This document shows, piece by piece, positions 16,785 through 55,300 of a DNA stretch of 64,000 nt. Origin of the DNA: a virus. Location: positions 91,875 to 155,874 of IMG/VR virus record IMGVR_UViG_3300034062_004313; one strand, written 5' to 3'. A program made the translations under genes and the position numbers. Position 1 is the first letter of the stretch. Each line of letters opens with the position of its first letter. The notes under the pieces are model-generated. The model ran no database searches and was not told the DNA's origin. It was given only the letters and a program-made list of their open reading frames with translations.

Positions 16785-16789
16785 CATAT

Positions 16790-18056: not shown

Positions 18057-18068
18057 CAAATAATAGTG

Positions 18069-18076
18069 TAATTTTG
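18069..18076 (+). promoter_or_regulatory. possible -7 box
   Basis: TAATTTTG fits TAnnTTTG and lies 17 bp before the ATG at 18094. TTCG at 18047 is only a weak -33 match. Confidence 0.35.
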
Positions 18077-18093
18077 GCTTCTAAATAAAAATC

Positions 18094-18414: not shown

Positions 18415-18422
18415 AATAAACT

Positions 18423-18638: not shown

Positions 18639-18648
18639 CTCCCCCTTA

Positions 18649-18828: not shown

Positions 18829-18837
18829 AATCAAATT

Positions 18838-19002: not shown

Positions 19003-19005
19003 GAA

Positions 19006-19035
19006 ATGTCGCAAAAAAGGCGTATATTGTTATGA
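19006..19035 (+). CDS. nine-codon leader peptide for tRNA-Arg
   Basis: ATG TCG CAA AAA AGG CGT ATA TTG TTA TGA, peptide MSQKRRILL. The two Arg codons (AGG CGT) lie within the 5' arm of a terminator-like hairpin directly upstream of tRNA-Arg(TCT). A ribosome stalled there would stop the hairpin forming. Short and speculative alone, but it repeats the logic of leaders A-C. Confidence 0.55.
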   Translation: MSQKRRILL

Positions 19036-19048
19036 TATGCGCTTTTTT
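19013..19048 (+). terminator. terminator-like hairpin before tRNA-Arg
   Basis: GCGTAT at 19020-19025 pairs with ATATGC at 19035-19040; after one bulged G, AAAAAAG at 19013-19019 pairs with CTTTTTT at 19042-19048. The T run is the 3' arm itself. The tRNA starts four bases later. Confidence 0.65.
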
Positions 19049-19052
19049 ATTT

Positions 19053-19124
19053 GGCTCCTTAGTTAAATGGATATAACCGCAGAATTCTAATCTGCATTTG
19101 GGAGTTCGATTCTCTCAGGGGCTA
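19053..19124 (+). tRNA. tRNA-Arg(TCT)
   Basis: Acceptor GGCTCCT/AGGGGCT, anticodon stem GCAGA/TCTGC with loop ATTCTAA giving TCT, T arm GGGAG/CTCTC. Isolated from the main tRNA cluster, it supplies the only Arg tRNA and completes the set of 20 amino acids. Confidence 0.9.
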
Positions 19125-19144
19125 CGAAATCTTAAAAATAAATT

Positions 19145-34455: not shown

Positions 34456-37245
34456 ATGACTGCATCATATTTACAGAATAACGACTATACAGCAATACAA
34501 ATGAGGAGACCATATGTTCTCCAAAATAATGATGTTGCTCAAACTGTAGCAACAATGAAGGGTGCTTGGGATGATGGTGCAAGAAGAGTAAAAGCTCAAT
34601 ATGAAAATGTTGCAGGATTACAATTAATAACAGATGAAAATAAAAAGGTGACATCTGAATTTTTAAAGTCTTCAAGAGAGCAATTAAAAAAATTATCAAC
34701 TCAAGATTTAGGAGATAGAAGTGTTCAAAATAATGGTATATCTATGATAAATCAATTTTTTGACCCTAATAATGGAAACTATCAAAATGTATTACAAGAA
34801 TCAAATGTAGTAGGAATTTTAAATTCAGAAGATAGTAAAGCGGAGTCTTTTAGAACAAAGGATAATGGAATTGGATATAATATAAAATCTCATGAAAATA
34901 TAAAATATCAAAAGTCAATATTATCAAAATTAAATAATAGTACAGCTTGGAAATCCGTAGCAAATGAGCTACAGTCTTATGTCCCTTATACGGATATTTC
35001 AAAAGAAATGATTCAAATAAAAAAAGCTGTAACAGAAAGAATAAAACAAGAATCATCTTTAGAAGGAGGAGATTGGTATATAAAAACTATAACAAGAGAA
35101 GGTATACCAGAACATGTCTTAAAAAATGCAATAGAAGAAATGGGTTCTCCAGCTTTAAAAGCTCAATTAAGAGAAGAAGGAAGAAATACATTCTATAAAA
35201 AATTACTTTCTGACCATAATTCAGTTGATAATTATTATAGTCAATTAGGTAACTCTTTTTTTGACCAACAAGTTTCTGATATATCTGTTCAAAAAGCATT
35301 AGCTGAAAGAGAATTAGCACTACTAGATAAAACAGACCCCAATTATAAAAATGCTTCCGATTACTACAATCAAACAATAAGTACAATAGACCAAACTAAA
35401 ACAAATGTAGAACTGCAAAGAGAAAAATATTTATCTACTCTTTCTGGACTTGGAAATATACAGAATGTATCATTATCCTTACAAAAATTGGACTTATTAA
35501 ATGAACAAATGGGTATAAATTCATTAGCTAAAAACTTAGCATATGAAAATATAACACAGAATGAATTAAGTTCCAATCCTGCTAAGATAGCATTTGAAAA
35601 CATGCAACAAGCAAGAATGAGACTTCAATTTGATATGACAAAGTTTGATGAAGAAAAAGAACAATTTAGAATGAAGTATGAGCAAGAAGAAAGAAAAATA
35701 GCTGCTGAAAATGAAACAGGTACTTCTGAAATGGGTTCTATATTTGGAGGAGGTGTTTATAACCAACCTGTTGCTTCTACTATGACTCCTAATGACTTGG
35801 AAAAAATAGGAAAGGAAGCAATAGATGGAGCATTCTCAAATCTTAATAATGATGCAGAATTAACAGCATCTTTCTTAACTTCTGTATTAGGAGATAATGG
35901 TTCATTCTATTCAATACTTCAAAATAATGTAAAGAATCAAGTTCCAATAAAAGAGTTATCTGGAGTTGAAGCAATGGGAATAACAGATAAACTGTCTGAA
36001 TTTGTAAAACATTATGTAGCAGACCAAGATTTAAAATTTGGAGTTTTAAATATTCCAAAAGGAACTGATAAAGAAAGAATAAAGGTGTTATTATCAAACT
36101 TTACACCTTCTCAAATAAATCAATTTCTACCACAAGTATTAGGAGCAAATAGAAATTATGTAACAAAGGCTGTAAAATCTTTTGCTGGAGAAGCAGCATC
36201 TGTAGAATTTCGTTCTATATTAGATGATGCTGATATGAAAAGAGAAAACTTTAATACTACACTTCTTCCAGAATTAAAAAGAAATCTTGGAGCATATGGA
36301 AAATATATAGATGGATATTCAGAAAAGGATATAAGAAATGCTTGGGAAAAAATGCCTGAAAGTGAAAAGGTTGTATATGAAAAATCAGAAGTTTCTTCTA
36401 GCGGTACTGGTAATTTTTGGAATAGAGAAGAATCAAATGTTAAAAGTATTCAAATAACAAAAGAAGAATATGAAAAAAATAAAGATAATGTTAAATTTGG
36501 AATAGGTTCAACTATACTATATTCAGCAAGAGTTATAAATTTTAATAATTTTAAAGATGTTGTATCACCTATAATAAATAGAACCATTGGAGAAAAGGTA
36601 GTAAATAATTATGGAAAGCAACAAACAATAACATATACTGGAAAGCAAATAACCAATAATCAACATACTAGAGACTTTGAAGAGTTAAAAACTCAATTGA
36701 AAATAGCAGGAGATGAAAATGGAGATATAAGAGAAATATTAGAAAAAGTTGGTTCAATGGATATGTATAGAGGTTTTAATATTAAGAGTACAAATGTAAA
36801 TAGTAAAACTGCTACAATAGATATAATTATTGAAGATAAACAAGAAAATTTAAAACCAAATGAAAAAGCTAAATTAAAAAATATACCAATAGCATCAGCT
36901 TCACTATCCCCTAAATGGAATACATCAGGAAGTAGTTTAGATACTAAAAAGACATACGGTTCAATATTAGCAGGTTCTACATCAATTTCTAAAACTATAA
37001 ATAATAAAGACTTTGCTTATATTAAAGTGATGAATAATGCTACAACAGCAGATATACAACCTTTAATTACTACTAATATACCTTTCATAAAAATAGCTGA
37101 CCAAGTAGTGCAGGTAAAGGATTTATTAGAAAATGTAGCTACTAAGTATGGATTTTCATCATTTTCAGATATGTTAATAAAAGACCCTACTAAAGCACAA
37201 AGAGAAATAAGTGTAATAATGAATTACTACGAAAACAAAAATTAA
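34456..37245 (+). CDS. cargo-like coiled-coil protein
   Basis: A 929-residue, predominantly helical protein starting MTASYLQNNDYTAIQMRRPY. Long charged helices include MRLQFDMTKFDEEKEQFRMK and YEQEERKIAAENETG (about 390-420). The C-terminal 250 residues are more beta-like. No membrane segment or enzyme motif. It begins the run of very large genes that crAss-like phages use for packaged, ejected proteins; its TAA overlaps the next ATG. Function beyond that is unknown. Confidence 0.5.
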   Translation: MTASYLQNNDYTAIQMRRPYVLQNNDVAQTVATMKGAWDDGARRVKAQYENVAGLQLITDENKKVTSEFLKSSREQLKKLSTQDLGDRSVQNNGISMINQFFDPNNGNYQNVLQESNVVGILNSEDSKAESFRTKDNGIGYNIKSHENIKYQKSILSKLNNSTAWKSVANELQSYVPYTDISKEMIQIKKAVTERIKQESSLEGGDWYIKTITREGIPEHVLKNAIEEMGSPALKAQLREEGRNTFYKKLLSDHNSVDNYYSQLGNSFFDQQVSDISVQKALAERELALLDKTDPNYKNASDYYNQTISTIDQTKTNVELQREKYLSTLSGLGNIQNVSLSLQKLDLLNEQMGINSLAKNLAYENITQNELSSNPAKIAFENMQQARMRLQFDMTKFDEEKEQFRMKYEQEERKIAAENETGTSEMGSIFGGGVYNQPVASTMTPNDLEKIGKEAIDGAFSNLNNDAELTASFLTSVLGDNGSFYSILQNNVKNQVPIKELSGVEAMGITDKLSEFVKHYVADQDLKFGVLNIPKGTDKERIKVLLSNFTPSQINQFLPQVLGANRNYVTKAVKSFAGEAASVEFRSILDDADMKRENFNTTLLPELKRNLGAYGKYIDGYSEKDIRNAWEKMPESEKVVYEKSEVSSSGTGNFWNREESNVKSIQITKEEYEKNKDNVKFGIGSTILYSARVINFNNFKDVVSPIINRTIGEKVVNNYGKQQTITYTGKQITNNQHTRDFEELKTQLKIAGDENGDIREILEKVGSMDMYRGFNIKSTNVNSKTATIDIIIEDKQENLKPNEKAKLKNIPIASASLSPKWNTSGSSLDTKKTYGSILAGSTSISKTINNKDFAYIKVMNNATTADIQPLITTNIPFIKIADQVVQVKDLLENVATKYGFSSFSDMLIKDPTKAQREISVIMNYYENKN

Positions 37246-40200
37246 TGCCAGATTTAATTAATCCTATATTTATACAGAATGAATTACCAAATCTTTCTTC
37301 AGGAGAACTTCCTTCTCTTGGAGAACTTTTTGTTCCTGAATTTAAATCAAATCAAACACCAGATAATTCAGCTTTTATAAAATCATTAAAGGATGATTTT
37401 TTATTTGACCCAAATTATAAAAAACCAGATAGTCTTGTTTTTGATTCTTTCTATGAGAAAGATGCATTAAGATATAAACAAAATGAAAGACTTTGGAAAG
37501 AAGTGGGATGGAATAAATACTTCCCTCAAGAAATTAATGATGCTATATATGATAATTTAGAAACAAAATGGGAATCTGTTTCTAATGTATTCCCTAAACT
37601 TTGGTATAATAGTAAATTTGCTTTTAAGAACTATTTTCAAAGCTATGCCGATGAAGTAGAAGCTTTAGCAACACTAAATAGTAATGCTTTAGCAGACCCT
37701 GAAAGATTTAAAGAAAATTTTGAAAAGAATAAATACTTAGAAGAACTATACCCAAACTATCAGAGCGATGTACCAACTAATGCATTTAATATTTTTAGAG
37801 GGGAATGGTGGGAAGAGATGACTCCTTCTGTTGGTTTTACATTAGGTACTATGGCAGCAGCAATAGGAGAGAGTGCTGCATTAGCTGCTATTACTGCTGA
37901 AGTAGGAGGAATAGGTGCTATTGCAAAAGCTCCGCATACATTAAGAAAAACATATAAGGCAATATCTAATTACTTCTCTTATAAAAAAGCTTGGAATGCT
38001 TTAAAAGCTATAAAAGGAGCAGATGCTGTTGGTAAAGCTAAGAATATAGGAAGTGCTGCTATCCATACATGGAGGCTTGCAAATACAGGGTTATCAGAAG
38101 CTATGATGGAAGGTGGTAACAATAAATACGACTTTTTAGAAACTTACGTTAATGATTTTGTTACAAAGAATGGGTATATGCCATCAGATGAACAAATGAA
38201 AGAAGCGACTAAAACTGCTAACTCAATTGCAAAATCTACAATTGCTTTTCAAGCTCCATTCTTAATATTATCAAATGCTGTTATGCTTAAAAACATATTA
38301 GGTCCAGCAACATTTGAAAAATTATTCGAAAAAAATATGATTAATCAAGGAATTCGTGCTGCTCAAAAAGCAATGGGATTTCCTGTAAGAGAATTAACAT
38401 TAGGTGTAGAAAAAGGATTAGCAAAGGTATTCGAACCAGCAAAGGAAAATCTTTTTAAAAGAATGATAAGAAGAGCTAGCGGCTCACTTTTAGAAGGATT
38501 TGAAGAATCATATCAAGGGCTTGTAAATACTGCTACAACAGATTATTATACAAATAAGTTCTTAAACTCTGGAGAAGAATCTATTCTATCATCAGTTGGA
38601 CAAGGTATTGATTATGCATTCTCAAATGAAGGTTTAAAAGAATTCATGGCAGGATTTGTAACAGGTGGAATATTTCAACATATTAAAACACCATTAGGAT
38701 ATGTTGTCCCAAAACCTAAACCAACAGAAAAAGAAGTTGAAAAAATTAAGATAAAAGAAGATGGAACCGAAGAAAAAATAAAAGAGAAAGTTTCTGATTA
38801 TGATTTTAAATGGTATCATAAATATCTTGGTTTTCACATGGATAAAATCAGTGATGAAAAGAAAAAGGAACAGCTACAAAAAATAGCTAAATCACTAAAT
38901 TTAGTAGGACTTGATAAAATATTTAACCAAGAAGGAATTTTAAACTATTTAAAATCAAAAGATACATCTTTCGGCATAGCGGCCTTTCTTGAAAAAGGTG
39001 ACATATTTAATGCTGAAAACTTACAAAATCTTGAATTAAATAGATATTTGTTTAGCGGATTAGCTACAGGAAAACTTGATTTACAAGTTGACAAAATAAA
39101 ACAATTATCAGAAGGAGATTTTGAAGGAGTAAAACAAATACTTGAACTTAATGATGCTGATTTTACTACAGAAGAAGATAAGTCAAATTTCATGGCTAAC
39201 TTAAAAACATTTGGTAATCTTATAGAATCCAAATCTAAAGAGATGGAAGCTATATATGAAGAACAAATGTCTTTCTATAATAAAGAAATGTATGATGCTC
39301 AAACATTATACAAAAAAGCTGTAAATGATTATAATATAGGAATTACAGCTTTAAAAGCAAAGTATGGAGAAAATTTAGATGCTGGACTAAAAGAAGTGGA
39401 AACTAATATAATGCTTGAACTTCAAGACTTATATGAACAAGCTAAAGAGATTGATGAACAAATTAAAAATCTAAGATTTGATAGAGGGTTTGATGAATTA
39501 TCAGATAAAGAAAAAATACAAGATAGTAAATTAAGATATGAACTATCACAAGTTTCTAATAAAACAAAAGAAGTATTAGATAGAAAAGAAGGGATTGATA
39601 AAGAAATAACAAATATTAATAACTTATCAAGTGAAGTTTTAAGTAGAAAAATCAATTACTTAGCGTATAATGATGTATTTCAACAGAGTGTACTTGCTCA
39701 GATTGGAATGGGAGATGCTGCTAAGAAAGCAAGAAGAATAATTTCTAAATTGAATAGTATTGATAATTCAATAAACTATTTAATATTAGAAGAGTTGTTC
39801 ACAATACCAACAAGAGAAGGTATTATAAAAGCAATTGATAAAAAGATAAAGGAAGTAGAAAAGAGAATAGAATTAAATGAAAGAATTACTAATGATGAAG
39901 AGCCTTTATTTATTTCTTTAGAAGAACAAATAGTATGGTTAAAGTCTCAAAAAGAAACTCTTGAAAAATTAAAAGAAGAATTAGAAAAACAATTTTCTAA
40001 AGAAGTAGTAAAAGATATTGATAAAACGGTAGACTTAATAGCTGATTATTTATTTGCTGCATCTGACCCTAGAAAATTATATAGAGGAAAGGGTAATAGA
40101 ATAAATAAAGAAGTGTTAAAAGAATATGTAAAAGCGCAACTTCAAAATCAAGAAAATTTAAATTTGTTAAATACATTAGCAAATTATAATAATTTTGAAA

Positions 40201-42746
40201 CAAGAGTGGATTATTTAAGTCAAAGTCTTGCTGATTTTCTTGGCGATATTGCTGATAAAGTGGAAATGGAAATGGATAAAAAGAGTGTAGATGCAAGTGA
40301 AGTTCAAACACCTGTAGTTCTTCCACCAGAAGACAAAAAAGACCCACCAGAAAAGAAACCACCTATAAAAACAGAAGAAGATAAAGATAAAAAGATTGAA
40401 GAATTAAGAAAAGAGTTAGCTCAGGTTCTTTCTGATATTAAACAAAACGAAATAGTAAATCAAATAAATGAAATAGTAAATAGTATAGAAAGTGATGAAT
40501 CTTTATCAGAAGAAGAAAAGGATGATAATATAAGTGATTTAGAATCAAAACTTCAGGAAGCATTAAAACAAATAGATGATTCAGTACAAAATTTAGATAT
40601 AACACAACTTACTAATTTATATACAGAATATAATGATTTATTTTCTGGAACAGAACAATATAAAGAAGAGCTTGAAAAAGCTGCTGCTATATTAAAACAA
40701 ATAGAAGAGTTAACAAAAGCTCCTGTAGGAGATACATTAGGATTTGATTCACTTGGAAGTATAGGTAATCAAGGTTTTCTAATAATGGAAAAAGAATTAC
40801 TAACAAATGGTAAATTCACTATAAATAATGTTTCAAAAGCTACACCTGAACAAAGAACAAAAATATCCGAAAATATAAAATTATTCCAAGATAAATATCC
40901 AGATAAACCTTTGCAGATAACAGAAGATACTGAAACTATATCTATTCAAGTAAAGAAGATAGAACCAGAAATTACAGATGAAATAGAGAAACTTGTAATT
41001 ACAGATGAAAATTATAATAATTGGAGCAATGTAAGAGATAAATCTGATTATGATGCTTTTGTAGACCAAGTTCGTTCTACATTAAAAATGTTTGAGCAAA
41101 TTCCTGACCCATCTTTAATAACAGAACAATCTGTAAGAGAAATGTTATCAGGGATTAAAGCTTTTAATAACATTGAAATATTAGATAAAGTAGTACCATT
41201 AATTGTAAAAAAATATTATAAAGAACCAGAAAAAGAAATTTCTCCAGAAATACAAGCTGCTGTAAAAGAAGCTTTTGATATAGCTAAAGTTGCCCAAGAA
41301 GAAGGAATAACATATGAAGAAGAATTAAAGAAAAGAGAAATATTTCAGAATGATAATAAGATTGATGAGATAGTAGATGACGCTAAAATGACAGGAAGAG
41401 TAGCTTTACCATCTGCAAAACCAAAAGAAATAAAGAACTCTAAAAGGTTAGATACAGATAAACCTTATCAGAGAGCAATGTTTTATTTTAAACAAAAACT
41501 TTCTGATGGAGAATATGGTAGAGATTACTTTAAACTTGTTTTATATACAGAAAAGGGACAATTAAAAGGAAAGGTTGTTAATAAAAAGGGTGATATATTA
41601 ACCTTTAATGAAAATGGAGAAATTGATGGTTCTGGTGTAGAGTTGATATTTATGTTTGATACTATTTCATATAATGAAAAGAGTTTAAACTTACCAAGAG
41701 CAGTTGCAGCAGGAGCCAAAATAGACCCATTAAAATTAGCAGGACAAGGGTTTACGTTACATCCTTCTTATACAGGATTATCAAATGTAGACCAAAGACT
41801 TATTTCATTTGTTGAAAACTCTACCACTCCAGTTTTAGCAAGTATAGAAATGATAACTCAAGGACAACTTCCAAGACCGGGAGTTGATAATGACCCTATG
41901 AGCACTACTGCTAAAGATGGAAAAAGGGTTACATTATTAGAATTAGAAAAAGATGGTTTATTTGAAGGTGTTATTGAAATTCCAAAACAAAATACGTCTA
42001 TAAGAAATACATTTATTAAATCTGGTAGACCAAATGTAAGATTAAAAAGAGATAAGAACTCTGATAAAGGAACTGAAAGAGTAGAAGTGAAAGCTACTAA
42101 ATTAAAGGATTTAAATGGTTTTGAACAAGTTAAAGATGCTAAAAAGATAATAAAGGATATTCTATCCAAAGCTTTAAAGGGTACTCTTCCATTAGAATAT
42201 AAAGAGTTTCTTTTAATGATAATTAATAGAAGAAAGTACACTATAATTCCTTTAGCCAATACATTATTATTAGTAGATGGTAAAAAGTTTTCAGAATATT
42301 ATAAAGATGTGGCAACTGCTCAGGATATTCTAACTGCTGAAGAAATAGAAGAAGCTCTTTATAACTTAACTTCTATAGATGAACTATTAGAATCAGATTT
42401 AAATATTGATAGCTTAATAGAAGATGAAACATTTGATTGGGAAAATCATGCATCAAACTTTCCTAAAGAAGTGGCTTCACTCATAGAAAATTATCCTATC
42501 TTTGTAAAGAGTAATTTAACAACTTCTGTAACATCTGTTAAAATAGGAGATAAAATAGAAGGTGTGAATAGAGTGAATAAAAGAATAATAATAACTATGG
42601 ACAAATCTTTTTCAGAATTAAATAATGAATTTATAAAACAAGAACCTGTATCTAAACCAGATATATCAGGTTCAGAATGGAATGATATAAATCTGACAAG
42701 TGAAGAAGAAAATAATATAATAGACAACTTAAATATTGAATGTTAA
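37245..42746 (+). CDS. giant cargo-like protein, 1,833 residues
   Basis: Contains an N-terminal region with a hydrophobic, Ala/Gly-rich stretch at about 195-230 (VGFTLGTMAAAIGESAALAA, ITAEVGGIGAIAKA) and a second near 465-480 (FMAGFVTGGIFQ) that could insert in membranes. Residues about 640-900 and 1,010-1,150 are long coiled coils (ELRKELAQVLSDIKQNEIVN). The C-terminal third is mixed alpha/beta, with no catalytic motif seen. It lies directly before the putative RNA polymerase, and its stop overlaps that start, so the proteins are probably made together and co-packaged. Could help transfer the polymerase through the envelope (inference). Confidence 0.5.
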   Translation: MPDLINPIFIQNELPNLSSGELPSLGELFVPEFKSNQTPDNSAFIKSLKDDFLFDPNYKKPDSLVFDSFYEKDALRYKQNERLWKEVGWNKYFPQEINDAIYDNLETKWESVSNVFPKLWYNSKFAFKNYFQSYADEVEALATLNSNALADPERFKENFEKNKYLEELYPNYQSDVPTNAFNIFRGEWWEEMTPSVGFTLGTMAAAIGESAALAAITAEVGGIGAIAKAPHTLRKTYKAISNYFSYKKAWNALKAIKGADAVGKAKNIGSAAIHTWRLANTGLSEAMMEGGNNKYDFLETYVNDFVTKNGYMPSDEQMKEATKTANSIAKSTIAFQAPFLILSNAVMLKNILGPATFEKLFEKNMINQGIRAAQKAMGFPVRELTLGVEKGLAKVFEPAKENLFKRMIRRASGSLLEGFEESYQGLVNTATTDYYTNKFLNSGEESILSSVGQGIDYAFSNEGLKEFMAGFVTGGIFQHIKTPLGYVVPKPKPTEKEVEKIKIKEDGTEEKIKEKVSDYDFKWYHKYLGFHMDKISDEKKKEQLQKIAKSLNLVGLDKIFNQEGILNYLKSKDTSFGIAAFLEKGDIFNAENLQNLELNRYLFSGLATGKLDLQVDKIKQLSEGDFEGVKQILELNDADFTTEEDKSNFMANLKTFGNLIESKSKEMEAIYEEQMSFYNKEMYDAQTLYKKAVNDYNIGITALKAKYGENLDAGLKEVETNIMLELQDLYEQAKEIDEQIKNLRFDRGFDELSDKEKIQDSKLRYELSQVSNKTKEVLDRKEGIDKEITNINNLSSEVLSRKINYLAYNDVFQQSVLAQIGMGDAAKKARRIISKLNSIDNSINYLILEELFTIPTREGIIKAIDKKIKEVEKRIELNERITNDEEPLFISLEEQIVWLKSQKETLEKLKEELEKQFSKEVVKDIDKTVDLIADYLFAASDPRKLYRGKGNRINKEVLKEYVKAQLQNQENLNLLNTLANYNNFETRVDYLSQSLADFLGDIADKVEMEMDKKSVDASEVQTPVVLPPEDKKDPPEKKPPIKTEEDKDKKIEELRKELAQVLSDIKQNEIVNQINEIVNSIESDESLSEEEKDDNISDLESKLQEALKQIDDSVQNLDITQLTNLYTEYNDLFSGTEQYKEELEKAAAILKQIEELTKAPVGDTLGFDSLGSIGNQGFLIMEKELLTNGKFTINNVSKATPEQRTKISENIKLFQDKYPDKPLQITEDTETISIQVKKIEPEITDEIEKLVITDENYNNWSNVRDKSDYDAFVDQVRSTLKMFEQIPDPSLITEQSVREMLSGIKAFNNIEILDKVVPLIVKKYYKEPEKEISPEIQAAVKEAFDIAKVAQEEGITYEEELKKREIFQNDNKIDEIVDDAKMTGRVALPSAKPKEIKNSKRLDTDKPYQRAMFYFKQKLSDGEYGRDYFKLVLYTEKGQLKGKVVNKKGDILTFNENGEIDGSGVELIFMFDTISYNEKSLNLPRAVAAGAKIDPLKLAGQGFTLHPSYTGLSNVDQRLISFVENSTTPVLASIEMITQGQLPRPGVDNDPMSTTAKDGKRVTLLELEKDGLFEGVIEIPKQNTSIRNTFIKSGRPNVRLKRDKNSDKGTERVEVKATKLKDLNGFEQVKDAKKIIKDILSKALKGTLPLEYKEFLLMIINRRKYTIIPLANTLLLVDGKKFSEYYKDVATAQDILTAEEIEEALYNLTSIDELLESDLNIDSLIEDETFDWENHASNFPKEVASLIENYPIFVKSNLTTSVTSVKIGDKIEGVNRVNKRIIITMDKSFSELNNEFIKQEPVSKPDISGSEWNDINLTSEEENNIIDNLNIEC

Positions 42747-45700
42747 TGATTTGTTTAAATGAACAACATATAAAAGCAGCTATAGGTGCTACAAAGAATA
42801 TAATAAAAGAGAATACAGGGATATCATTCCCTGAATTAGCTAAGAAATTATATAATAGATTCTACCAACCTCTTATTGAAAAAAATGATAGGGAAAAGGT
42901 AGAAAACTTTTCTATTGAAATAGTAAAATACATAGCTAAAGAAATGCATTCTAGAATTGATGAATTTGAACAAGAGAATCAATTAATAGATGCATATTCT
43001 AAAGTTCAAGATGCTTTGAATGAAGAACAAAAACAAGTTCTTAAAGAGCAAGTTGTTAATAAAATAAAACTTAATCCACAAGATATGCTTAATCTACAAC
43101 GAGATGAAGCTATTAGAGAACTTGTTGGATTAAATAGAAGAAAAGAAATTAAAAGACCTATTATAAAAGACACAAGTGTAAAAATTCAGAATGCACTATT
43201 AAAAATAAAGAATCTATTTCCTCAATCTGTAAACCTTTATACATTCTATGCAAAAGCAATAGAATCTACAATCAAAGGTATTCCTGATAAAGAAACGGGT
43301 ACACTAATAAAACTATCAGGCCAACAGTCTGTAGATAGAGGAGAATATTTTGATATTGAGCCTTTATTTAGAGCTTCACAAATTGCAACAGGTCATCAAC
43401 CAAAAGATTATACAGAGCCATATAATTTAACAGAATCAACCGAATATGGTAATATTGTTGATAACACCATAAGATTCTTTATTAAAAATAAAGATAAATC
43501 ATATGCACAATTAAAAAAACAATTACAGAATGACCCGGATTTTAGGCTTTCATTCTCTCAATATATGACTTTACAAAGGTCAAATAGTCCAGAAGTTAGA
43601 GAAAGAAAAATATTTGAAGACTATCTTGATTCTTTTTTAGATGACATGATATATGTAATAAATCAAATTGAAGAAACATATAAAGATTATTACTTAACCG
43701 ATTTAACTGAGCTTGGCAGTGATTCAAAAAACTTTAGAATATATGATATTTCTTTAAATGCAATTGGTGCTCTTGACTTAGTAGCAATAAAAGAAGATGG
43801 GTCATATAGAGTTATAGATATAAAAACTGCCTATGATAAAATTTCCTTAAAAAAGAAGGAAGATTATAATACACAGATTTCTATATATAATTTAATATTA
43901 TCAAATATTGAAGGACTCACTCCTGAGAATAAATCCGATATCTTCTATATCCAAAAAGATATATATGTAACCGATAGGTCAGATACAGATAAATTTGGCA
44001 AATTTGTCAAGAGCGTATTAAAATCTACAGAAGTTGTTTCTTTAGATAGTAAAACAAAAGAAGAAGTATTAGAAAAGATAGTTAAGTATAAAGAAGAATT
44101 TTATAAATCTTATAACCCAAAGACTGACTTAAAATTTATTGAAGAAGATAATTTGGATGAAAAGAAAGCAAAATCAAAAAAGTCAAATCTTTCTGTTACA
44201 AGTAGAATAAGATATAAAAACAATTTCCGTAAATTTGAAGAAGAAAAGAATAAAAAACCACTCCTATCTAAAATAGTTAAAAATGAAAAAATGTCAACTA
44301 CAACGTCCTTAAAAGAAGGAGTTAAGTGGTTGAAAAATACTTTTCCAGAAATATCAGAACAAGGAGTACATGTTGTAAAAACTTTACTATCTGATACAGG
44401 AGGTCAATTCTTTTTAGATGCTATATATTTAGCAGAAAAATCAAATGAAGGAGTAGCTTATCATGAAGGATGGCATAGATTTACACAATTATATTTAAAA
44501 AAGGATGAAAAAGTAACACTTTATAATAAGACAAAAGAACGAGCTATTGATTTTATTAGTAGAGAAGGAGTAAAATTGAATACTTCCACTGCTACATTTA
44601 TGGAAATAGAAGAATTCTTAGCAGATGAATTTACAAAATATGCTAACAATCCTTCCGAATATAAATTTGATAAGTTAGGAGAAGAACCTAAATCAATATT
44701 CCAAAAAATATGGGAGTTTGTACTTTCTCTTTTTAACTTTAAAAAGAATAATGGGGAAAACAGTTATCAAAAATTATTTAATAACCTTTATTTTGGAACT
44801 TTCTATAGAGGAAATTTTAGTATGAATAATGCTATGTTCTCTTCATTAAGAAGTGTGTTAAAAGATAATACAGGAAATACATTAATAGATAATACAACAT
44901 TTATAAGATTTAGAAATTACTTAGATAATGCTATTCAGAATCATGCTATGGATAATAGCTATTTAATTAATGATAGATTGATTAAAAGTGTAACATCATT
45001 TAAAGATATTATAAGTCTTATACAAGAGAGCTTAGTTAATTTAAAAGATTCTTATTTACAAATGGAAGAAGATGGTGTAATAACACCATTCCAAAAAACG
45101 CAACTTGAAAATTTACAAAAGATATTAGAACCTAAAAATATAAATAAATTTGTTGCAAGCTATTTAAAATTTACAGGATTTAAATCTATAAAAAACTTTT
45201 ATGAAAAAAATATAAATCTTGTAAATAAAGAAAAAGAAGAGAGTGAAAATTCAAATATTGAAAAAGAAGAGAGTGAAGGGACAGATATACCTAATTCAAG
45301 ATTAGAAGAAGGTCCAGAAATAGAATTTGATAGAAGTGGGGAAACAGATGCATTTGCTTTAGCAAGAGCAGAATTAAAAGATTGGTTTAATTCTGTATCA
45401 AAATTAAATGTGGATAAACAAGGAGTTTATATTATACCTGAAATAGATGGTGTAAAGAAAGCATATGATGAATTTTACGAAGTTGATGATTTTGGATTTG
45501 TTAAAACCTTAGAAGGAAAGAAAGCGTTTTATAAAACCTTAGAGATTTTATCAGGTTCTCCTTCTATATCAATATTAAAACAAAAACTAACAAATCCTGA
45601 TAATTATTATCTGTTTCCAGAACTTCAAATAATAAAAGATAGACTTTTAGGTGCTAAATATGATGTAGATGGAACTATTTATGAAGTGGAAGGACTTATC

Positions 45701-48700
45701 CCTAAGATGGAACGTCTTTCTGAAGCAATGAATGCTGGTACTATTTCTGATGAAGAAGCTGCTGAACATTCTAGCCTTTTAAGTTTTATGATGCATTTCT
45801 TGCAAATAATGGGAATGTCAAAAGTAGAACTTCTCACATTAAAGGTGGATTTCTCAAAAGCTAATGAAGGAGAATGGGATGAGCAAGGAGGAAAGAAAAC
45901 ATTTAATCCATCTTCTTTAATTGAAAATACAGACATTTCTATATCAAATCTAATAAATCAATTAGCTTCTGAATTTCAAACAAATGCAAAAATTGATGAT
46001 GATAAAACTATATCTATATATGAAGCCTTACAAAAACTTAAATCTGATGGTAACTTACAATCTGTAAATTTAACCACTGCTGCTAAATCTTTATCTTCAT
46101 ATAAATTCTTTAAGAATGAATTGGGTGATTATTTCTTTAATCCTTTTTATAAACTGGAAAATTTTGAATATTTCTATACTAAAGAAAGCTTTTCATTAAG
46201 TCAAAAAGCAAAACTTCAAGATTTTTATTCTTCATTCGGAGTTTCATTAGAAAATGCTTTATTGAACAATCCTGCTTATAGATATAAAATTTTACAAAAT
46301 TATAAATCTTTAATAGGTATAAGAAATGAATTAGCAAATACTTCTTTAAATGTATTTAAGTCTAATTTATATTGGAAAGAAAAAGAATTAACTAATCCAA
46401 GTGATAATAAAGAAGCTTTACAAACAATAATCAATAAGATGTTTTCTAAAAATCCTATTGATAGACTAATGTATTTAGGACAAGAGTATAAAGAAAAGAA
46501 AGGAGATAGGTCAAAAATATTTGCTAAGAATTTACCAACTCTTATTGAGTTAGCATCTCTGAAAAGAGAAATGAAAGATAATTATAGTTCTGGTTCTGTT
46601 TTAACAAAATCAGGTTCTCAATTTAGTTATTATCAACCAAATCAACAATTAATAATTGCAGATTTTATAAATAGTGATGAAATACAATCCTTTAAAGATT
46701 TTGATAAATATGAAGCATTGTATCATTTGAATCCAATTAGAAATAGGCAACTATTGTATGAACCTTGGATAAGAATGATTTTTGACGATAAGGGTAATAA
46801 AATACCCAGTATGAAGCTCAAAATATCTGTTCTTACTCAACAAACAATAAATAGTGAGATAGGAGAAAAGATAGAAAAAACTACAGGTGAGTTAAGTATA
46901 GGTAGTAAGATTTTATTTGACTTTATGGTTGTTTCTGATACAGGATATTCAGAAATTAAAAGAATGGAAACATCCGATAGTTCTTGGAGACAATCTGTAT
47001 TTAATGAAAATACAGGAAAAGATGTACCTATTTTAAAAAATATAGAAAGTTTTAAAGATGGTCAATTCTTAACAATTATACATCACTATATTACTAGTGC
47101 AGCATTCATGTATAGATTTCATAAATCAAAAGAAGGTACAGGATATTTAGAAAAACCTATAAATAATCTTGGTGTATTTGAAGAAATGCTCGGAAAAGAT
47201 ATTACAGATGAAATAAAATCATTTGTAAATTCAAAACCTTTAGATTATGATTTGAATAATATGCTTGGTGAATTATTAATGTTAAATGAAGAATTTATTG
47301 AAGAAATAGAAAAGAAAGTAGTATCATATTTTGAAGACATAACATTTGGTAACCAATTTGGAATTGATAGCTTAGGTGAAGATAGTTTTTCAAAATTCTT
47401 TAAAGATAATATATCAGAAGAAGATTTTTCTAAAGTGAGTAAATTAATAAAATATAGTCAAGTATATAATGGTAAATTTCCATTTAAAACTTTAAAAACT
47501 CCGGGAAATATATCTGAATTATTTTCTGATAAGAAGTTTAAAGAAAAGATTACACAATTTGTAGCAACAGATTTTCTAAATTCTATGGCTGATTCTGCTA
47601 TGTTTTTTGGAGATTATACTTATTGGAAAGATGCTATAAAGAGAAGAAAAGTGATAGGTAATAATGGTTCTATTCATACTGTAACAGGAGAATTGTTAAA
47701 TGCTGTAAATGCTCAATTAAACTTTAAAAGTATAAAGAAAACATATAGAGATTTCTATAAAATGGAACCATCTACTAAACCAAATTCAGTAGTTAGAAAA
47801 ACAGTTTTAATAGATGAAGTAGTTTCTTTAGATTATGAAAATAAAGTTATAAAACCACTTGAAGAATTATATAAGCAGTTAGGAATAAAAAGTGACCCAA
47901 GAGTTGATAAAGTAGCAACTATAAAAGCATGGGGTAAAGCTGAATTAGGGGATGCAGCAGCATATATTTCTCTTGATTTATATAGATTTATGAGACAAAG
48001 AGAAAGACTTTGGAGTGAACAAGATGAAGCTGAATATAACAGACAAAATTTAATTCTTGACTGGCATCTTTTTAAAAATCCTACTGCTCAATACGATGAA
48101 GATGGAAACTTTATAGAAGAAGATTTTACAGAAGATGAATTCCGTGAAATATTTGGAAAACCATATTCTTCATTTAATGTTGCAAAATTTGCAATGACTG
48201 GTCCTATCTTATCACAAGATATAGATAGTCATCTTATGCCTGTTTTTGATAAAATGGGATTAAAGGTTTTAATTCCAGAAACAGATTATGAACAAAGAAA
48301 GACTTTATTTGATTATATGTATACAAATGATGCAGATTATTTAGTATATGAAAGTGGTTCAAAAGGATTTATTGCTGCAAAATCAGAAGCATGGGGAGAA
48401 AATGGATTAGATATTAATGCTAAATATGTAGACCACGCAGGTTCATTCTTTAAGAATCAACAAAACACAACTTCTATAAAGAAAGAATCAGTATTAGCAA
48501 ACCAATTAAGGGGAATATTTTATTCTCCTATGCTTCTTCATGCAAATTTAAGACCTGTTTTAGAACAACAATATAAAAGATTTATAAATTCTCTTACAGA
48601 AATAATAGATATAAAATCTGGTAAGACTTTAGCATCAATAGGATTAAATAGAGATGGAAATTTTATAGAAATAAATGGTAAAGTTGCAGGTAAAAAAATA

Positions 48701-51700
48701 TTTGTAGAAAAAATAAGAGAAAAGGTCATTGATTTATATCCTAGTCAAGTAGAAATATTAGATACATTAGATGTAGATAAAGATGGTAATTTTATAAACT
48801 TCTTAGAATCCTTACATAATTATAAAGATATATACAATATTATATCTGGTTTAATGGATGATTCATTTAGAAAAATAAAACTAAATGGTTCTAAATTCTA
48901 TCAAACTATAGAATTGGGAACAAGTTTACAATTTAATAATTCAAAGCGTAATACAGATAAATCCTTAAAATTAAATTGGCATAAATTAGATTATACACCA
49001 AGCGGTAAAAAAATAGTAGGTACTTTAGAATGTGAATGTAAAATATCTTTCAGTAAAGCTTTCGAACCATTATTAAATCTTCCAGATAGAGATGGTATTC
49101 CAATAAAAGTAGCAAGACGTACATTTAAAGAGCAGTTGGATTTATTAAATGCTCTTAGAAGTGATGAAATATGGTATGAACAATATAAAGAATCTTTTGT
49201 AATGGTTGGTGTACGTATCCCTCTTCAAGATTTAAATTTTGTTTCACACTTAACTGTAAGAGAATTCTTATCACCCGTAGAAGGAGATGTGATAATATTA
49301 CCTACTGAATTTTATAAACAAGTGGGTGCTGATAATGATATTGATACTGTAACAGCAACTTATAAGTTTTTAGATGAAGCTACTGGATTACCTATAGCTA
49401 AGGTGAATGAATCTTACAAAGACATACAAGATAAACTTTTAAAAATTGAAGATGACATATCATCTATAGCTCCAACAAAAACAGTAGAAGTGACATCTAA
49501 AATAGATATGGAATATCTACTTAGAAACTATCTTGAGATTTATGAAAATAACGGTAAGACAGAAGAAGATTTTATAAAAGATTTAACACTGCATGAAGCA
49601 GGTGGTGTAAATGGGCAATATGATAAAAAATCATTCTTTTATAAAATAAAACGAATGAATCTTGGCAGTATTGGAAAACAAACTTATGAGCAACATGTAT
49701 ACGAAGACTTTTTAGAAGATGTTGATAATTTAGTTCAACAAACAGAATTTACAGAAACTTATGAAGAAGATGTAGATGAATCAAGTGAATATAAAAGACT
49801 TAAAAAAGAAAGGAGAGATTTAAAAAAGAAGCAGAGAAATTACATAAAAGGATTAACAAATGAAGTTGTTGACTCTATCATTACTGTACTTAGAACACCA
49901 GAAGCATTCTTATATTTTACTGAAACTGATGACATGAGTAAAGTGGAAAATATGTCTAAAAAAATTATAGAGTTAAAAACAGAAAAAAACATAAAAGATA
50001 TAGATGCTACATTTAATGCACCAATGTCTGCTTTAAAAAGCATAGGAGCAAAAAATAATTATGTTAATCACAATAATAATTTTGGTGTAAGAACTCAATT
50101 AGGTTCATGGGTTAAATTTGCAAGACTTTTAGTAACTTTAAAAACAATAAATGCTGGAGTAAATAAAAAATACAAATCCGCATCTGATGCAAAAACCTTA
50201 CTTGGTGATAAGTTTTTATATGATAGAACTATTAGAAATCCATTATCAAAAGAAAATGATAAATCATTCTACTCTTTTGAAATGTATGATGAAAAAGGAG
50301 AAAGAATAAATAAGAATGTATCTATTATAGTATCAACATTATTAGATTTATTTAAAAATCCAGATACATATCCATCTTTGAATGTAACTTGGAATAATAT
50401 AAAACAAGCAATATTCCTTTCTTCTTTAAGAATTCCTATGGAAGATATAATGTTATATCTGAATAATCCTATTACAGAAGAGTTAGAAATTACAAAGAAT
50501 AAGCTTGGAGAATCATTCCAAATGAGACATTCTATTGTAGAAACAGGTAAAAATCTTTTTGATAGTGAAATTTTCGATAAAAATGAAAGTTCTTTCTTTA
50601 CCTACGCTGACAATGTAAAAGGAGCAGGTATGAATAGGTTCACTACTGGACAATTTCAAAGAGCTGAAGAAAAACTAACACAATTAGAAATAACAGAAGG
50701 TTCACTCAAGTTTACAATTGATGAAATTAATGAATTTACAAGAATATATAATAGATATAAAAGAGAAGAATCTAAAAAGGGTAATCCTATTGATTTAAAA
50801 TCCTTCTTAAAAAATAATCCTTCATATAAAAAATTAGCTAAAAACATATTTTTATATCACATTACTCTTATAGAAGATGGTAATAACTTTTATAAAAGTG
50901 TTGTAAAATATTTAGATAGAGATTCTGTAAAATATAATAATGAAGGTAAAATATATGATATTAAAGCAAGAGAAAAAATAATAACAAAACAAGGAATGCT
51001 AAATGATAGTTTCTTAGAAGATATTAGAAACGACTCAGTTTTTTCTTTCTTATATCATGATGAAACTGTATTAAATGGATTAAGTGTTTTAAAACAAGAA
51101 ATTCTTCAAAATCCAACTATAAAGCAAAAGTATAATGAACTTTTAGCAAAATTAATATCAGAAGTTAATTTGGACTCTGAAGGAATGAAAAAGTTTTCTC
51201 AAGTATATTATACTGATTTTCTTGAAATGATTTATAAGAATTTCTTTGTACTTGAACTAAATCAAAAAGATATTAATGGAGTTGAAAAGTTAAATAAAAA
51301 CTTCTTATTTGATTTCTTTAAATCAGATATATTTGTAGATTTTCCAAAATTAAAAAAGGAGTTTTCTTTAAGTAATGCAGAAGAAATAATGAAACAGATG
51401 GAAATGGAAGAAGAAGATTCTTTATTTTCCTTTGAAAAGCTTCCCAATCAACTTCCTCAATTTTTATCTAAATATCCAGAGTTTAGAGAATTGGAAATAT
51501 TTAAAATCCTTGGTCCAAGAACATTGAGTTCTCACTTGAATCAAGAAAGAATGAATCAGTTTAGAGATAATAATAATGAAGAACTTGATGAAACTGGAGA
51601 ACCCTTAGAAAGAAGTGATGAAGAATATGAAGAAAGGAAATATGTAAAAAAATTACCAGACCCTAATTTATCTGAATTGATAAATACAATGAAAAAATCT

Positions 51701-52351
51701 TACATATTTGCAAACTTCTCAAAAGATGCTCAAAAGAGAGAAGTGGAAGAACTTGTTGTTAGAAATCAATTTGAAGATTTATTAAACTTTGACATTTCTA
51801 AATTTGAATTTTTAAATATAGAGAGTAACAGAATTAATCATTATATGAATGGTGAAAATATAAAGGAAATTCAAGAATTTATGAATGTTATAGCATTTTA
51901 TTCTTTTATGATTGCTCCACATATTGATAAATCAAGGGGTAATTTTTCTTCAATTATTCCCATATCTATTACTAAAAGAATTATAGAAAATGCTATAAAC
52001 AATTTTAATAAATATAATAAAACATGGACTACATCTAATTATACTATATTTTTTGAGCAGTTTGAAGAAATGTTTAGAGAAATGAATTCTGAATTTAAAC
52101 TTCAAACAAAAGATAAAGGAGAATATTATTTTCATGGAGATGCAGGAAAACTTTATGGAATTCTAAATAAGTTTTCAGTGAATGACCCATTTTATCAAAC
52201 AAGGTTAGCTATGTTAAATCCTTCAAAAGAAGGAGTTAATACATTTTTAATTAAACTTAAAGATAGAAAACCTTATATAGAAAAAGAAAACCCTGAAATA
52301 ACTTTAAATATTAAAGCATCTGGATTACCAAGTTCGGATATAATTTGTTAA
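42740..52351 (+). CDS. giant putative virion RNA polymerase with nuclease-like and zincin-like domains
   Basis: A 3,203-residue protein. The catalytic loop is D2198-N-D2200-I-D2202, preceded by VGVRIPLQDLNFVSH and GDVIILPTEFYKQVGA, the layout of the double-psi beta-barrel of crAss-like and YonO-type single-chain RNA polymerases (usual motif DFDID). N-terminal residues 343-383 resemble a PD-(D/E)XK nuclease core: GALDLVAI with D346, VIDIKT with D360 and K362, QISIY with Q379. H575-E-G-W-H579 is an HExxH zincin motif with EEFLADEF downstream. Crass-like virion polymerases transcribe early genes after ejection. The start could be 42746 (TAATG overlap), two residues shorter. No stop codon recoding is needed to keep the frame open. 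Confidence 0.78.
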   Translation: MLMICLNEQHIKAAIGATKNIIKENTGISFPELAKKLYNRFYQPLIEKNDREKVENFSIEIVKYIAKEMHSRIDEFEQENQLIDAYSKVQDALNEEQKQVLKEQVVNKIKLNPQDMLNLQRDEAIRELVGLNRRKEIKRPIIKDTSVKIQNALLKIKNLFPQSVNLYTFYAKAIESTIKGIPDKETGTLIKLSGQQSVDRGEYFDIEPLFRASQIATGHQPKDYTEPYNLTESTEYGNIVDNTIRFFIKNKDKSYAQLKKQLQNDPDFRLSFSQYMTLQRSNSPEVRERKIFEDYLDSFLDDMIYVINQIEETYKDYYLTDLTELGSDSKNFRIYDISLNAIGALDLVAIKEDGSYRVIDIKTAYDKISLKKKEDYNTQISIYNLILSNIEGLTPENKSDIFYIQKDIYVTDRSDTDKFGKFVKSVLKSTEVVSLDSKTKEEVLEKIVKYKEEFYKSYNPKTDLKFIEEDNLDEKKAKSKKSNLSVTSRIRYKNNFRKFEEEKNKKPLLSKIVKNEKMSTTTSLKEGVKWLKNTFPEISEQGVHVVKTLLSDTGGQFFLDAIYLAEKSNEGVAYHEGWHRFTQLYLKKDEKVTLYNKTKERAIDFISREGVKLNTSTATFMEIEEFLADEFTKYANNPSEYKFDKLGEEPKSIFQKIWEFVLSLFNFKKNNGENSYQKLFNNLYFGTFYRGNFSMNNAMFSSLRSVLKDNTGNTLIDNTTFIRFRNYLDNAIQNHAMDNSYLINDRLIKSVTSFKDIISLIQESLVNLKDSYLQMEEDGVITPFQKTQLENLQKILEPKNINKFVASYLKFTGFKSIKNFYEKNINLVNKEKEESENSNIEKEESEGTDIPNSRLEEGPEIEFDRSGETDAFALARAELKDWFNSVSKLNVDKQGVYIIPEIDGVKKAYDEFYEVDDFGFVKTLEGKKAFYKTLEILSGSPSISILKQKLTNPDNYYLFPELQIIKDRLLGAKYDVDGTIYEVEGLIPKMERLSEAMNAGTISDEEAAEHSSLLSFMMHFLQIMGMSKVELLTLKVDFSKANEGEWDEQGGKKTFNPSSLIENTDISISNLINQLASEFQTNAKIDDDKTISIYEALQKLKSDGNLQSVNLTTAAKSLSSYKFFKNELGDYFFNPFYKLENFEYFYTKESFSLSQKAKLQDFYSSFGVSLENALLNNPAYRYKILQNYKSLIGIRNELANTSLNVFKSNLYWKEKELTNPSDNKEALQTIINKMFSKNPIDRLMYLGQEYKEKKGDRSKIFAKNLPTLIELASLKREMKDNYSSGSVLTKSGSQFSYYQPNQQLIIADFINSDEIQSFKDFDKYEALYHLNPIRNRQLLYEPWIRMIFDDKGNKIPSMKLKISVLTQQTINSEIGEKIEKTTGELSIGSKILFDFMVVSDTGYSEIKRMETSDSSWRQSVFNENTGKDVPILKNIESFKDGQFLTIIHHYITSAAFMYRFHKSKEGTGYLEKPINNLGVFEEMLGKDITDEIKSFVNSKPLDYDLNNMLGELLMLNEEFIEEIEKKVVSYFEDITFGNQFGIDSLGEDSFSKFFKDNISEEDFSKVSKLIKYSQVYNGKFPFKTLKTPGNISELFSDKKFKEKITQFVATDFLNSMADSAMFFGDYTYWKDAIKRRKVIGNNGSIHTVTGELLNAVNAQLNFKSIKKTYRDFYKMEPSTKPNSVVRKTVLIDEVVSLDYENKVIKPLEELYKQLGIKSDPRVDKVATIKAWGKAELGDAAAYISLDLYRFMRQRERLWSEQDEAEYNRQNLILDWHLFKNPTAQYDEDGNFIEEDFTEDEFREIFGKPYSSFNVAKFAMTGPILSQDIDSHLMPVFDKMGLKVLIPETDYEQRKTLFDYMYTNDADYLVYESGSKGFIAAKSEAWGENGLDINAKYVDHAGSFFKNQQNTTSIKKESVLANQLRGIFYSPMLLHANLRPVLEQQYKRFINSLTEIIDIKSGKTLASIGLNRDGNFIEINGKVAGKKIFVEKIREKVIDLYPSQVEILDTLDVDKDGNFINFLESLHNYKDIYNIISGLMDDSFRKIKLNGSKFYQTIELGTSLQFNNSKRNTDKSLKLNWHKLDYTPSGKKIVGTLECECKISFSKAFEPLLNLPDRDGIPIKVARRTFKEQLDLLNALRSDEIWYEQYKESFVMVGVRIPLQDLNFVSHLTVREFLSPVEGDVIILPTEFYKQVGADNDIDTVTATYKFLDEATGLPIAKVNESYKDIQDKLLKIEDDISSIAPTKTVEVTSKIDMEYLLRNYLEIYENNGKTEEDFIKDLTLHEAGGVNGQYDKKSFFYKIKRMNLGSIGKQTYEQHVYEDFLEDVDNLVQQTEFTETYEEDVDESSEYKRLKKERRDLKKKQRNYIKGLTNEVVDSIITVLRTPEAFLYFTETDDMSKVENMSKKIIELKTEKNIKDIDATFNAPMSALKSIGAKNNYVNHNNNFGVRTQLGSWVKFARLLVTLKTINAGVNKKYKSASDAKTLLGDKFLYDRTIRNPLSKENDKSFYSFEMYDEKGERINKNVSIIVSTLLDLFKNPDTYPSLNVTWNNIKQAIFLSSLRIPMEDIMLYLNNPITEELEITKNKLGESFQMRHSIVETGKNLFDSEIFDKNESSFFTYADNVKGAGMNRFTTGQFQRAEEKLTQLEITEGSLKFTIDEINEFTRIYNRYKREESKKGNPIDLKSFLKNNPSYKKLAKNIFLYHITLIEDGNNFYKSVVKYLDRDSVKYNNEGKIYDIKAREKIITKQGMLNDSFLEDIRNDSVFSFLYHDETVLNGLSVLKQEILQNPTIKQKYNELLAKLISEVNLDSEGMKKFSQVYYTDFLEMIYKNFFVLELNQKDINGVEKLNKNFLFDFFKSDIFVDFPKLKKEFSLSNAEEIMKQMEMEEEDSLFSFEKLPNQLPQFLSKYPEFRELEIFKILGPRTLSSHLNQERMNQFRDNNNEELDETGEPLERSDEEYEERKYVKKLPDPNLSELINTMKKSYIFANFSKDAQKREVEELVVRNQFEDLLNFDISKFEFLNIESNRINHYMNGENIKEIQEFMNVIAFYSFMIAPHIDKSRGNFSSIIPISITKRIIENAINNFNKYNKTWTTSNYTIFFEQFEEMFREMNSEFKLQTKDKGEYYFHGDAGKLYGILNKFSVNDPFYQTRLAMLNPSKEGVNTFLIKLKDRKPYIEKENPEITLNIKASGLPSSDIIC

Positions 52352-52360
52352 TTTTACAAA

Positions 52361-55300
52361 ATGGAATGTAGTTTAAATAAATCTCTTATAAAAGATACAA
52401 TAACAGACACTATTAATATTAGTGTAGTAAATTCAGGATTTTTTTCTGATGATTATGTAATGCTTGATAATAAAGGAGAAAAATTAGTATCTAAAATAAA
52501 TAAAGCTTACAAAACAGATGTATTAAAATTAGAAGATGGAAAACTTTCTATGGTAATACCCGATAAATTAATTTCTCAATACGCTTTTAGTAATCCAGAT
52601 GGGAAAGATATGGTATTTGAAGAAATTAAAAATTCATATTTATCATACTATTCTGATGGAAGTTTAAATTTAATAAGCGATGATAAATTTATAAATCATC
52701 CTTTATTAGAAGGTCCTTCTATAGAAGTTTTAATAAAGTTTGCAAAGAAGATAAATCCTAATTTTAAAGTGGCTGTAGTGGAAAATCTACCAGCAAAAGC
52801 ACTTTCTCTTATAAGAGATAACATAATTATAATTCAAGAAAGACATTTTTTTGATGAATTTCCACAAGAAATATCTCACTTCTTTGTAGAATTATTAGAT
52901 GAAAATTCAGAAATATATAAAGAACTTATTGAAAAAATAAGTGATTTTTCAATATATGGAGAAATCAGAGAAAAATATAAAAATAATCCAGCATATCAAA
53001 TAGATGGTAAACTCAATATAAAAAAGATAAAGAAAGAAGCTGCTGCAACTTTGATTGGAGAATATATAAAACAATCTCAAACAAATAATGTAAAAAATAA
53101 ATTTGGAAAAGACTCTGAAAAAATTACAACATGGTTTGATAAATTAATGAAATTTCTAAGAAGAGTTTTCACTTCTATTATTAGACCTATTTATCAAGAA
53201 CCTATTAGTAACATATTTGAAAAGTCTGCTCAACAGATATTAGAAGGAGATATAAGTAATTTAGATTTAGCAAAACCAATATCTATATATGATAGTTATT
53301 TTTATTCTTTAGCTGAAGCAGCAATGCCTGAAACTACAGAAGCAAGTGCATTTGCAAAAGCACTGAGTAAGTTTTCAAATGGAATGAAAAGAAAACTTAC
53401 AAAAGCATTCTTAGTATTTGCAGAAGATAAAAAGTTAGAAGGATTACTAAAAGAGTTAGCTGACCCTATGTATCCTAGTTATAATAGACTATTTGATGCT
53501 ATTAATTTATTAAAAGATGTAGATAGAACATTTGGATTTTTTGAGAATGAAGAGAATATAAATGTAAATATTATAGCAGAAGCAACACAAAAACTTGCAG
53601 AAGCATTTGCTATATTAGAAGCTGTTCCTAAAGCACTAACATCTGTTCTTGAAAATTTAAGAACTTCAATTAAAAAAGGAGGTTTAAATGAAAACGAATT
53701 AGTTAGTAATCTCACAGAACTTCAACACTACATGAAATTTATTGATACCTTTAAAAAGGTGGAGAGTGAATTTATAAGTCTTTTGAATGCAGTGAAAGAA
53801 AATGAAGAGTTAAATGAAGACATATATAATGATATGGTTCGTATTATGGGAACAACATCTACTCAATTTAATAGAGTAAATCTTGAAATTATAAATATAA
53901 TAAGGACACATCTATATGAAACGACTAAACTCTGGACCTTAACTTTATTTGAAAATTATAGAAAGAGTGTAACAGATAGATTGGAATTAGCCACTTTAGA
54001 TTCATCAAAAATAAAACTTCTAACTATGTTAGAAGAAACGTTTAGCTCAAATGACCATATAGAAGCTGCTTTATCAGGAAATTTAGATAAATTATATGCT
54101 AAAAGTGAGTTAGTAAAACTTGGAAAAGTAAAAGATAGATTTTCAAAAATAAAAGATATATCTAATATAGATTATTTTATATTTTTATTAGCTGCCCCTT
54201 CTTTAATGTCTGACCCTTTCTTAACTACAGCAGTTTCTTACTTTGTAAATCAACACTATAAAGAAGGTATACAAGCTGCTCAAGAAAGTAGAGTTTTTGC
54301 TACAGATGCTTTAGAATTAATGGAAAAAGCTGGAACAGATTATTATGGAACACAAGCTCAAATAATAGAAACTCAAAATACATTTGTACAAAATAAAGAT
54401 GAAGCATTTGAAAAAGCTACATTAATAGATGAAACATTAAGATATAATCTAAATTTTGATTATCAAACTCTCTTAAAACAAAGAGAAGATATAGGTAAAA
54501 ATTTAGGGTTTAAAAGATTTGAAATTAAAAATTTGAATCTAAATATAAAAGAAGGGAAAATAGAACTCCAATCAAGATTAGATGAAACTTTAAAAGAAGT
54601 AGAAAAATTAGAAAAAGAATATAAAGAAATTCAAAAAAAGATTAAAGATTTTAATTTTACTTATTATATACAACCATTTACAGATGATTACTATAAAATA
54701 ATAAATAGTCTAAATAATGAAAAAGATGGAGAACTATTAAAAAAAGCAAAACAATTAAAGTATTCAATTCTTCAATTGCAGTCTCAATTCTTATCACATT
54801 TAATATCTCAAAACCTTGAAAAAAATGATTATAAAGAAATTGAACTTGTTAATAAAATGTCTCAATTAGTAGAAATAGAACAAAGTCTTCCTCCATTTGA
54901 TAAAGTAAAATATGAAGAATTTTCTAAACTATTTATTGAAGATGAAATTAATACAGGAAGAGCTATAGCTGCACATAAAAACTCTTGGATAAATAACTCT
55001 ATCAGAGAAGCAAAAAAGAGTGGAGATACAACATCTATAGAAGATTTAAAAGAAAAATTTGAATATGATTGGGAAGAACTATTTATGGTTTATGACCTAA
55101 CTCCTAAATTTTGGGAACAAAACTCAAAAAATTGGGAAAATCTTCAAGAGTATATAAATAATAAAATAAATGAACCAAAACTTTTAAATAAGCAACTTGC
55201 TGCAATAAATACATTAAGAAATAAACTCTTAAAAGGAGTTAGAGGACCAAATGGAGAAGTATTTATACAAGCTTTAGAAAAAGTAAGGTCTCCTATTTCA

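Follow-up and report, generated by a model that had tools for sequence, protein, structure and literature searches.

Does the giant RNA polymerase (RNAP) protein of this phage carry a working nuclease at its front, and if so, would that nuclease travel in the virion and act early in infection? The window, the whole 64,000-nucleotide stretch analyzed here, comprises bases 91875-155874 of a 155,874-base virus record. Its bases 43766-43888 on the plus strand translate into GALDLVAIKEDGSYRVIDIKTAYDKISLKKKEDYNTQISIY, residues 343-383 of a 3203-aa protein. The original prediction read this segment as the signature of a RecB/Cas4-type PD-(D/E)XK nuclease that, if packaged and ejected with the polymerase, could break down host DNA, act against defense or process phage ends. 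The setting is of broad interest, as crAss-like phages are the most abundant human gut viruses.

Results

The gene order of the window begins with portal-/MCP-like genes (245-5570), followed by long structural genes and then giant ORFs (37245-58372). Both this order and the RNA polymerase are crAss-like, which identifies the window as part of a crAss-like phage genome. Pfam and RNAP homology define the 3203-aa CDS (42740..52351, plus strand) as a fusion in which nuclease, HEGWH zincin and RNAP follow one another in a single ORF; the nuclease is the first recognizable enzyme domain, ahead of the zincin and the presumed virion RNAP. The zincin-like metallopeptidase motif HEGWH (residues 575-579; 44462..44476, plus strand) matches the zincin regions of other crass-like phages, and the downstream E624-E625 (44609-44614, plus strand) corresponds to the conserved EE of those zincins. 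Polyvalent proteins characteristically unite two or more enzymatic or conflict domains on a single chain, often together with a zincin, and the nuclease, zincin and RNAP of this protein fit that description. The polymerase catalytic loop DNDID (residues 2198-2202; 49331..49345, plus strand) was connected to crAssphage gp44 by tblastn (E=1e-5), and the loop with its surroundings could be aligned with gp44 and with cr118/cr114/cr109. The setting G.RIP.Q...EFL...GD.I..P.EF...G(S/A)D.DID is common to the window protein and annotated crass RNAPs. Crassvirales virion RNAPs are recognized by a DxDxD loop in a giant protein whose gene lies downstream of the tail/cargo genes. The window protein shows this loop and this gene order, and the carrier is indeed the polymerase protein, as originally proposed.

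Several other features of this region were recorded. The standard code suffices to translate the window protein; the giant RNAP proteins of cr114_1 and cr109_1 contain 69-70 in-frame TAG codons (L004:6877-19695 and L005:7009-19995), which fits known amber recoding. Nineteen tRNA genes, none with a suppressor anticodon, are clustered inside the structural gene block at 13846-19125. A 1355-aa structural-block protein (28550-32617) has its own HExxH (HENIH) and a C-terminal region that is tail-lysozyme-like by eye. An Rfam scan of window positions 36000-53000 gave no match.

The motifs G343-A-L-D346, D360-I-K362 and Q379-I-S-I-Y383 were found in the translation exactly at the place originally given for them. 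They constitute motif II G343-x-x-D346 (43766..43777), motif III D360-I-K362 (43817..43825) and motif IV Q379-x-x-x-Y383 (43874..43888), all on the plus strand. The extent had to be revised: Pfam PDDEXK_1, the AlphaFold model and Foldseek place the domain at residues ~232-457 (43433..44110, plus strand), and the earlier list had left out motif I, G237-x-x-x-D241-x-x-x-R245-x-F247 (43448..43480, plus strand), which was recognized by conservation and lies on helix 1 (model helix 14-31). RecB/Cas4 nucleases usually carry a His at the position equivalent to D241. The GxxxH form of motif I, a trait of RecB/Cas4/AdnAB, is absent from the window protein and is replaced by GxxxD (G237, D241). Residues 219-470 of the window protein contain no cysteine, and a Cas4-type Fe-S cluster is therefore absent.

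The bare three-part pattern is weak evidence, because its loose form G..D-D.K-Q...Y arose in 70 of 2000 shuffles (3.5%) of the same protein. Independent evidence was strong. Pfam PDDEXK_1 matched a 301-aa piece with E=1.6e-8, its 35.2 bits exceeding the cut-off of 22, and gave E=6.7e-7 for the full-length protein. The domain was likewise matched by the PHROG exonuclease families 298 and 1218, and NCBIfam returned no match for it. When the whole record was searched with PDDEXK_1, the window domain was the single place found. PHROG 298 additionally marked a second, separate nuclease gene in the record, upstream of the window. This gene, L071:4145-4918 (genome 88144-88917), encodes a stand-alone 257-aa PD-(D/E)XK protein with the canonical motif I AGTILH, just before a terminase-like gene; this protein fits the structural-block PDDEXK of the literature.

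AlphaFold2 modeling of residues 219-470 with alignment A8 (31 sequences, 14-29% identical to the window domain) gave a pLDDT of 79 and a pTM of 0.76; an earlier model from two sequences only had a pLDDT of 41 and was discarded. The model places motif I on helix 1 and motifs II and III on neighboring strands, so that D346, D360 and K362 are predicted to form the adjacent-strand D and (D/E)-x-K core of a PD-(D/E)XK enzyme. Q379 and Y383 lie in the next helix (model helix 152-172, residues 370-390), supplying the Q-x-x-x-Y trait of RecB/Cas4/AdnAB. The best Foldseek matches in the PDB were the Cas4-family ACE1 (E=7e-6), the AdnA nuclease domain, MGME1, EXO5 and AddAB; the best viral matches were PD-(D/E)XK proteins, including those of the crass-like phages ct3KQ27 and cr116_1. 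A different predicted fold would have argued against the original prediction; the fold obtained from AlphaFold2 and Foldseek is PD-(D/E)XK, with moderate TM-scores (about 0.3-0.5) that do not single out an exact subfamily. A PDB sequence search gave one meaningful match, the AdnB nuclease region. AcrIIC4 and other weak PDB matches from a deeper profile were set aside.

Conservation was counted in 43 relatives' sequences from giant crass-like phage proteins, some of them near-duplicates. G343 and D346 are present in all 43, Y383 in 42, and D360, K362 and Q379 in 40 each, the other three having Glu at the D360 position. For motif I, G237 and D241 are kept in 41 sequences and R245 in 39, and position 247 is F or Y in all 43. 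The invariant or nearly invariant columns of alignment A8 are mainly these motif residues, and Pfam PDDEXK_1 was detected at E<=0.01 in 28 of 31 relatives; the phiCrAss001 gp47, cr85_1 and cr128_1 proteins scored just under the curated cut-off. Just one close relative turned up, L002 (3158 aa), which is 33% identical where its N-terminal region could be aligned. It retains every motif residue and pairs with the window domain in the tree (support 100/99). A profile built without these two still located both correctly at modest E (about 1e-4 to 6e-4), and hhalign of the pair against the other crass members gave a probability of 82%; by these figures, the pair is tied to the other members by direct sequence similarity of modest strength, which tempers the nuclease reading. 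Conservation of D346, D360, K362 and Q379, proposed at the outset as a check, thus extends from L002 to 40-43 of the 43 relatives. Together with the Pfam match and the AlphaFold model, it confirms that the window RNAP protein contains a PD-(D/E)XK domain.

The relatives were reached through the RNAP part, the zincin and steigvirus profiles, and profile searches of viral contigs yielded about 60 loci, mostly in giant proteins. No relatives emerged when the window domain served as a single-protein query against viral contigs or INPHARED phages, or when bacterial genomes were searched with a profile. Six proteins of ~245-257 aa (L105, L106, L110, L112, L113, L118) stand alone, with an Asp-type motif I (GSxVDQxxRDFF), GEVDLL and VDMKTS; these are single-domain forms of the RNAP-linked nuclease.

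Some relatives lack active-site residues, and the domain therefore need not be active everywhere. The L108, L111 and L115 clade has E-x-(Q/S) in motif III (K to Q or S) and R in place of the motif IV Q; in Dulem virus 41, motif I and the Tyr are gone. Judged from their sequences, these domains are probably natural inactive forms, and as such would provide built-in controls from nature. In the clade (L108:9160-9783, L111 and L115:9971-10579), YEIQAR and GKRLSMY occur in an otherwise conserved giant protein.

A single protein with nuclease, zincin and RNAP in this order is encoded by the window and by L002, L078/L082, L079/L103, L116/L117 and L119; for the last group, the zincin is deduced from an HExxH 610-622 residues downstream. 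In L087-L090, L095-L101 and L127, one giant protein ends C-terminally with the nuclease, and the zincin is on the next gene, which in L127 also has a visible RNAP loop. The order is not universal: L083, L085, L091 and L093 have the RNAP or zincin gene first and the nuclease gene behind it. These varied arrangements indicate that the block is kept while gene boundaries, and sometimes the order, shift. For most environmental crass-like proteins found through the zincin pattern AYHE[AG]WH, Pfam showed no PDDEXK ahead of the zincin within the ORF itself, and several of their contigs have one on the preceding gene. In phiCrAss001 gp47, cr85_1 and cr128_1, the nuclease domain is followed by an HExxH about 370-380 residues later. 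An 'exonuclease V' label in cr118_1 was unconfirmed, as neither Pfam nor our own profile found a PDDEXK in the parts scanned. cr85_1 gp056 has a C-terminal ADP-ribosyltransferase at residues 2329-2459 (L006:12679-13071; Pfam ART-PolyVal E=7e-21), a probable further injected effector domain on the steigvirus nuclease-zincin cargo protein.

Discussion

Sequence, model and analogy together make it probable that residues ~232-457 constitute a virion-carried, active PD-(D/E)XK nuclease module of a polyvalent RNAP protein, a judgement that covers the identity and this reading and singles out no target. By its motifs and predicted fold, the domain is probably an active, metal-dependent nuclease of the RecB/Cas4/AdnAB (exonuclease V-like) type.

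A chance motif in a large lysine- and aspartate-rich protein, with no nuclease at all, has a negligible probability: shuffled sequences do produce the loose pattern, but the Pfam score above cut-off argues against it, and conservation and the predicted fold refute it. It is also quite unlikely that the fold has been kept as a platform through which the polymerase binds DNA or RNA, serving template tethering or packaging without cutting. Given the L108, L111 and L115 domains without the catalytic Lys and Gln and the Dulem virus 41 domain without motif I, a non-catalytic role may occur somewhere in the family. However, in the window and about 40 of the 43 relatives, no part of the domain is better conserved than its catalytic residues at ~20% overall identity, and binding alone would not require such conservation, which disfavors a binding-only role.

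Alternatively, the nuclease might serve the polymerase itself, by trimming template or transcript ends or making primers like the PD-(D/E)XK endonucleases at the N-terminus of polymerases from negative-strand RNA viruses. That the module is repeatedly co-linear with or fused to the RNAP would be in line with this, as would a weak Foldseek match to a bunyavirus cap-snatching endonuclease (rank 18, E=0.014). Yet the QxxxY motif and the best fold matches (Cas4/AdnAB/EXO5/MGME1) are those of DNA end-nucleases, in steigviruses the module and the catalytic RNAP are on different proteins, and a bacterial host would not be expected to contain capped transcripts. We regard such a polymerase-coupled enzyme as improbable.

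For the favored virion-carried nuclease, the homologue phiCrAss001 gp47 is informative: it is a virion protein, detected in virions by two studies (PMC6235969; PMC10172136), and packaging of the window module with the polymerase, as originally suggested, is plausible by this analogy. Like gp47-type cargo, for which ejection with DNA is the published model, the nuclease would be packaged and then ejected along with the phage DNA. The zincin may cut the polyprotein after entry and free the nuclease; this is the least certain step, and zincin release of domains after entry has been proposed for polyvalent proteins (PMC5512222). From what is typical of the family, D241, D346 and D360 would hold one or two Mg2+/Mn2+ ions, with K362 assisting catalysis, and DNA would be cut from or near its ends. 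In the families closest to it in structure, the enzymes work on DNA ends or single strands.

The target is a matter of judgement. Host or defense-related DNA in the first minutes of infection is a real possibility, if somewhat short of an even one. The ends of the incoming phage DNA, resected for circularization or protection, are a possible target that we would name only tentatively. Processing of template or transcript coupled to the RNAP is unlikely, and so, to a similar degree, is the lack of any catalytic role. More speculatively, and with doubt prevailing, the crass RNAP-linked nucleases may form their own PD-(D/E)XK subfamily with an Asp motif I (roughly G-[NTS]-x-x-D-x-x-x-R-x-[FY]-F) and, with the zincin, an ordered, self-processing, co-injected unit that would hit host or defense DNA or process the incoming genome before early transcription. 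A conserved and apparently active predicted nuclease on polymerase cargo represents a concrete, testable early-infection activity.

PDDEXK nucleases of crass-like phages have been described, in the available portion of Yutin et al. 2021 (PMC7886860), in the structural block, the replication block and, in some phages, a large transcription-associated protein; a 2023 review repeats these locations and calls the function unclear (PMC10136315). As far as that portion goes, the PDDEXK domains of large transcription-block proteins share genomic block and superfamily with the window domain, which is therefore a divergent further example of a published domain type. The same portion of the published account (PMC7886860) does not include the Asp-type motif I, residue-level conservation, the apparently inactive clades or the order relative to the zincin.

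With the RecB-type nucleases Cas4/AdnAB/EXO5/MGME1, the window domain shares the fold, G-x-x-D, D-x-K and Q-x-x-x-Y; it differs in having Asp for the motif I His and in being fused to a zincin and an RNAP, and, compared with Cas4/AddB/EXO5, in lacking Fe-S cluster cysteines. The polyvalent proteins of Iyer et al. 2017 (PMC5512222) resemble the window protein in joining several enzyme domains and a zincin on a very large chain that is probably injected. The main text of that study makes no mention of crAss phages, and it describes N4-like vRNAPs fused to zincins; the crass RNAP, in contrast, is an unrelated polymerase. The closest parallels are phiCrAss001 gp47 (Kehishuvirus primarius) and its steigvirus homologues in cr85_1 and cr128_1, which carry the same PD-(D/E)XK motifs as the window, including motif I GxxxD...R.(F/Y)F, followed by an HExxH zincin. 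In phiCrAss001 gp47 the module is near the C-terminus and separate from the annotated RNA polymerase gp50, whereas the window protein has it close to the N-terminus, in fusion with the RNAP.
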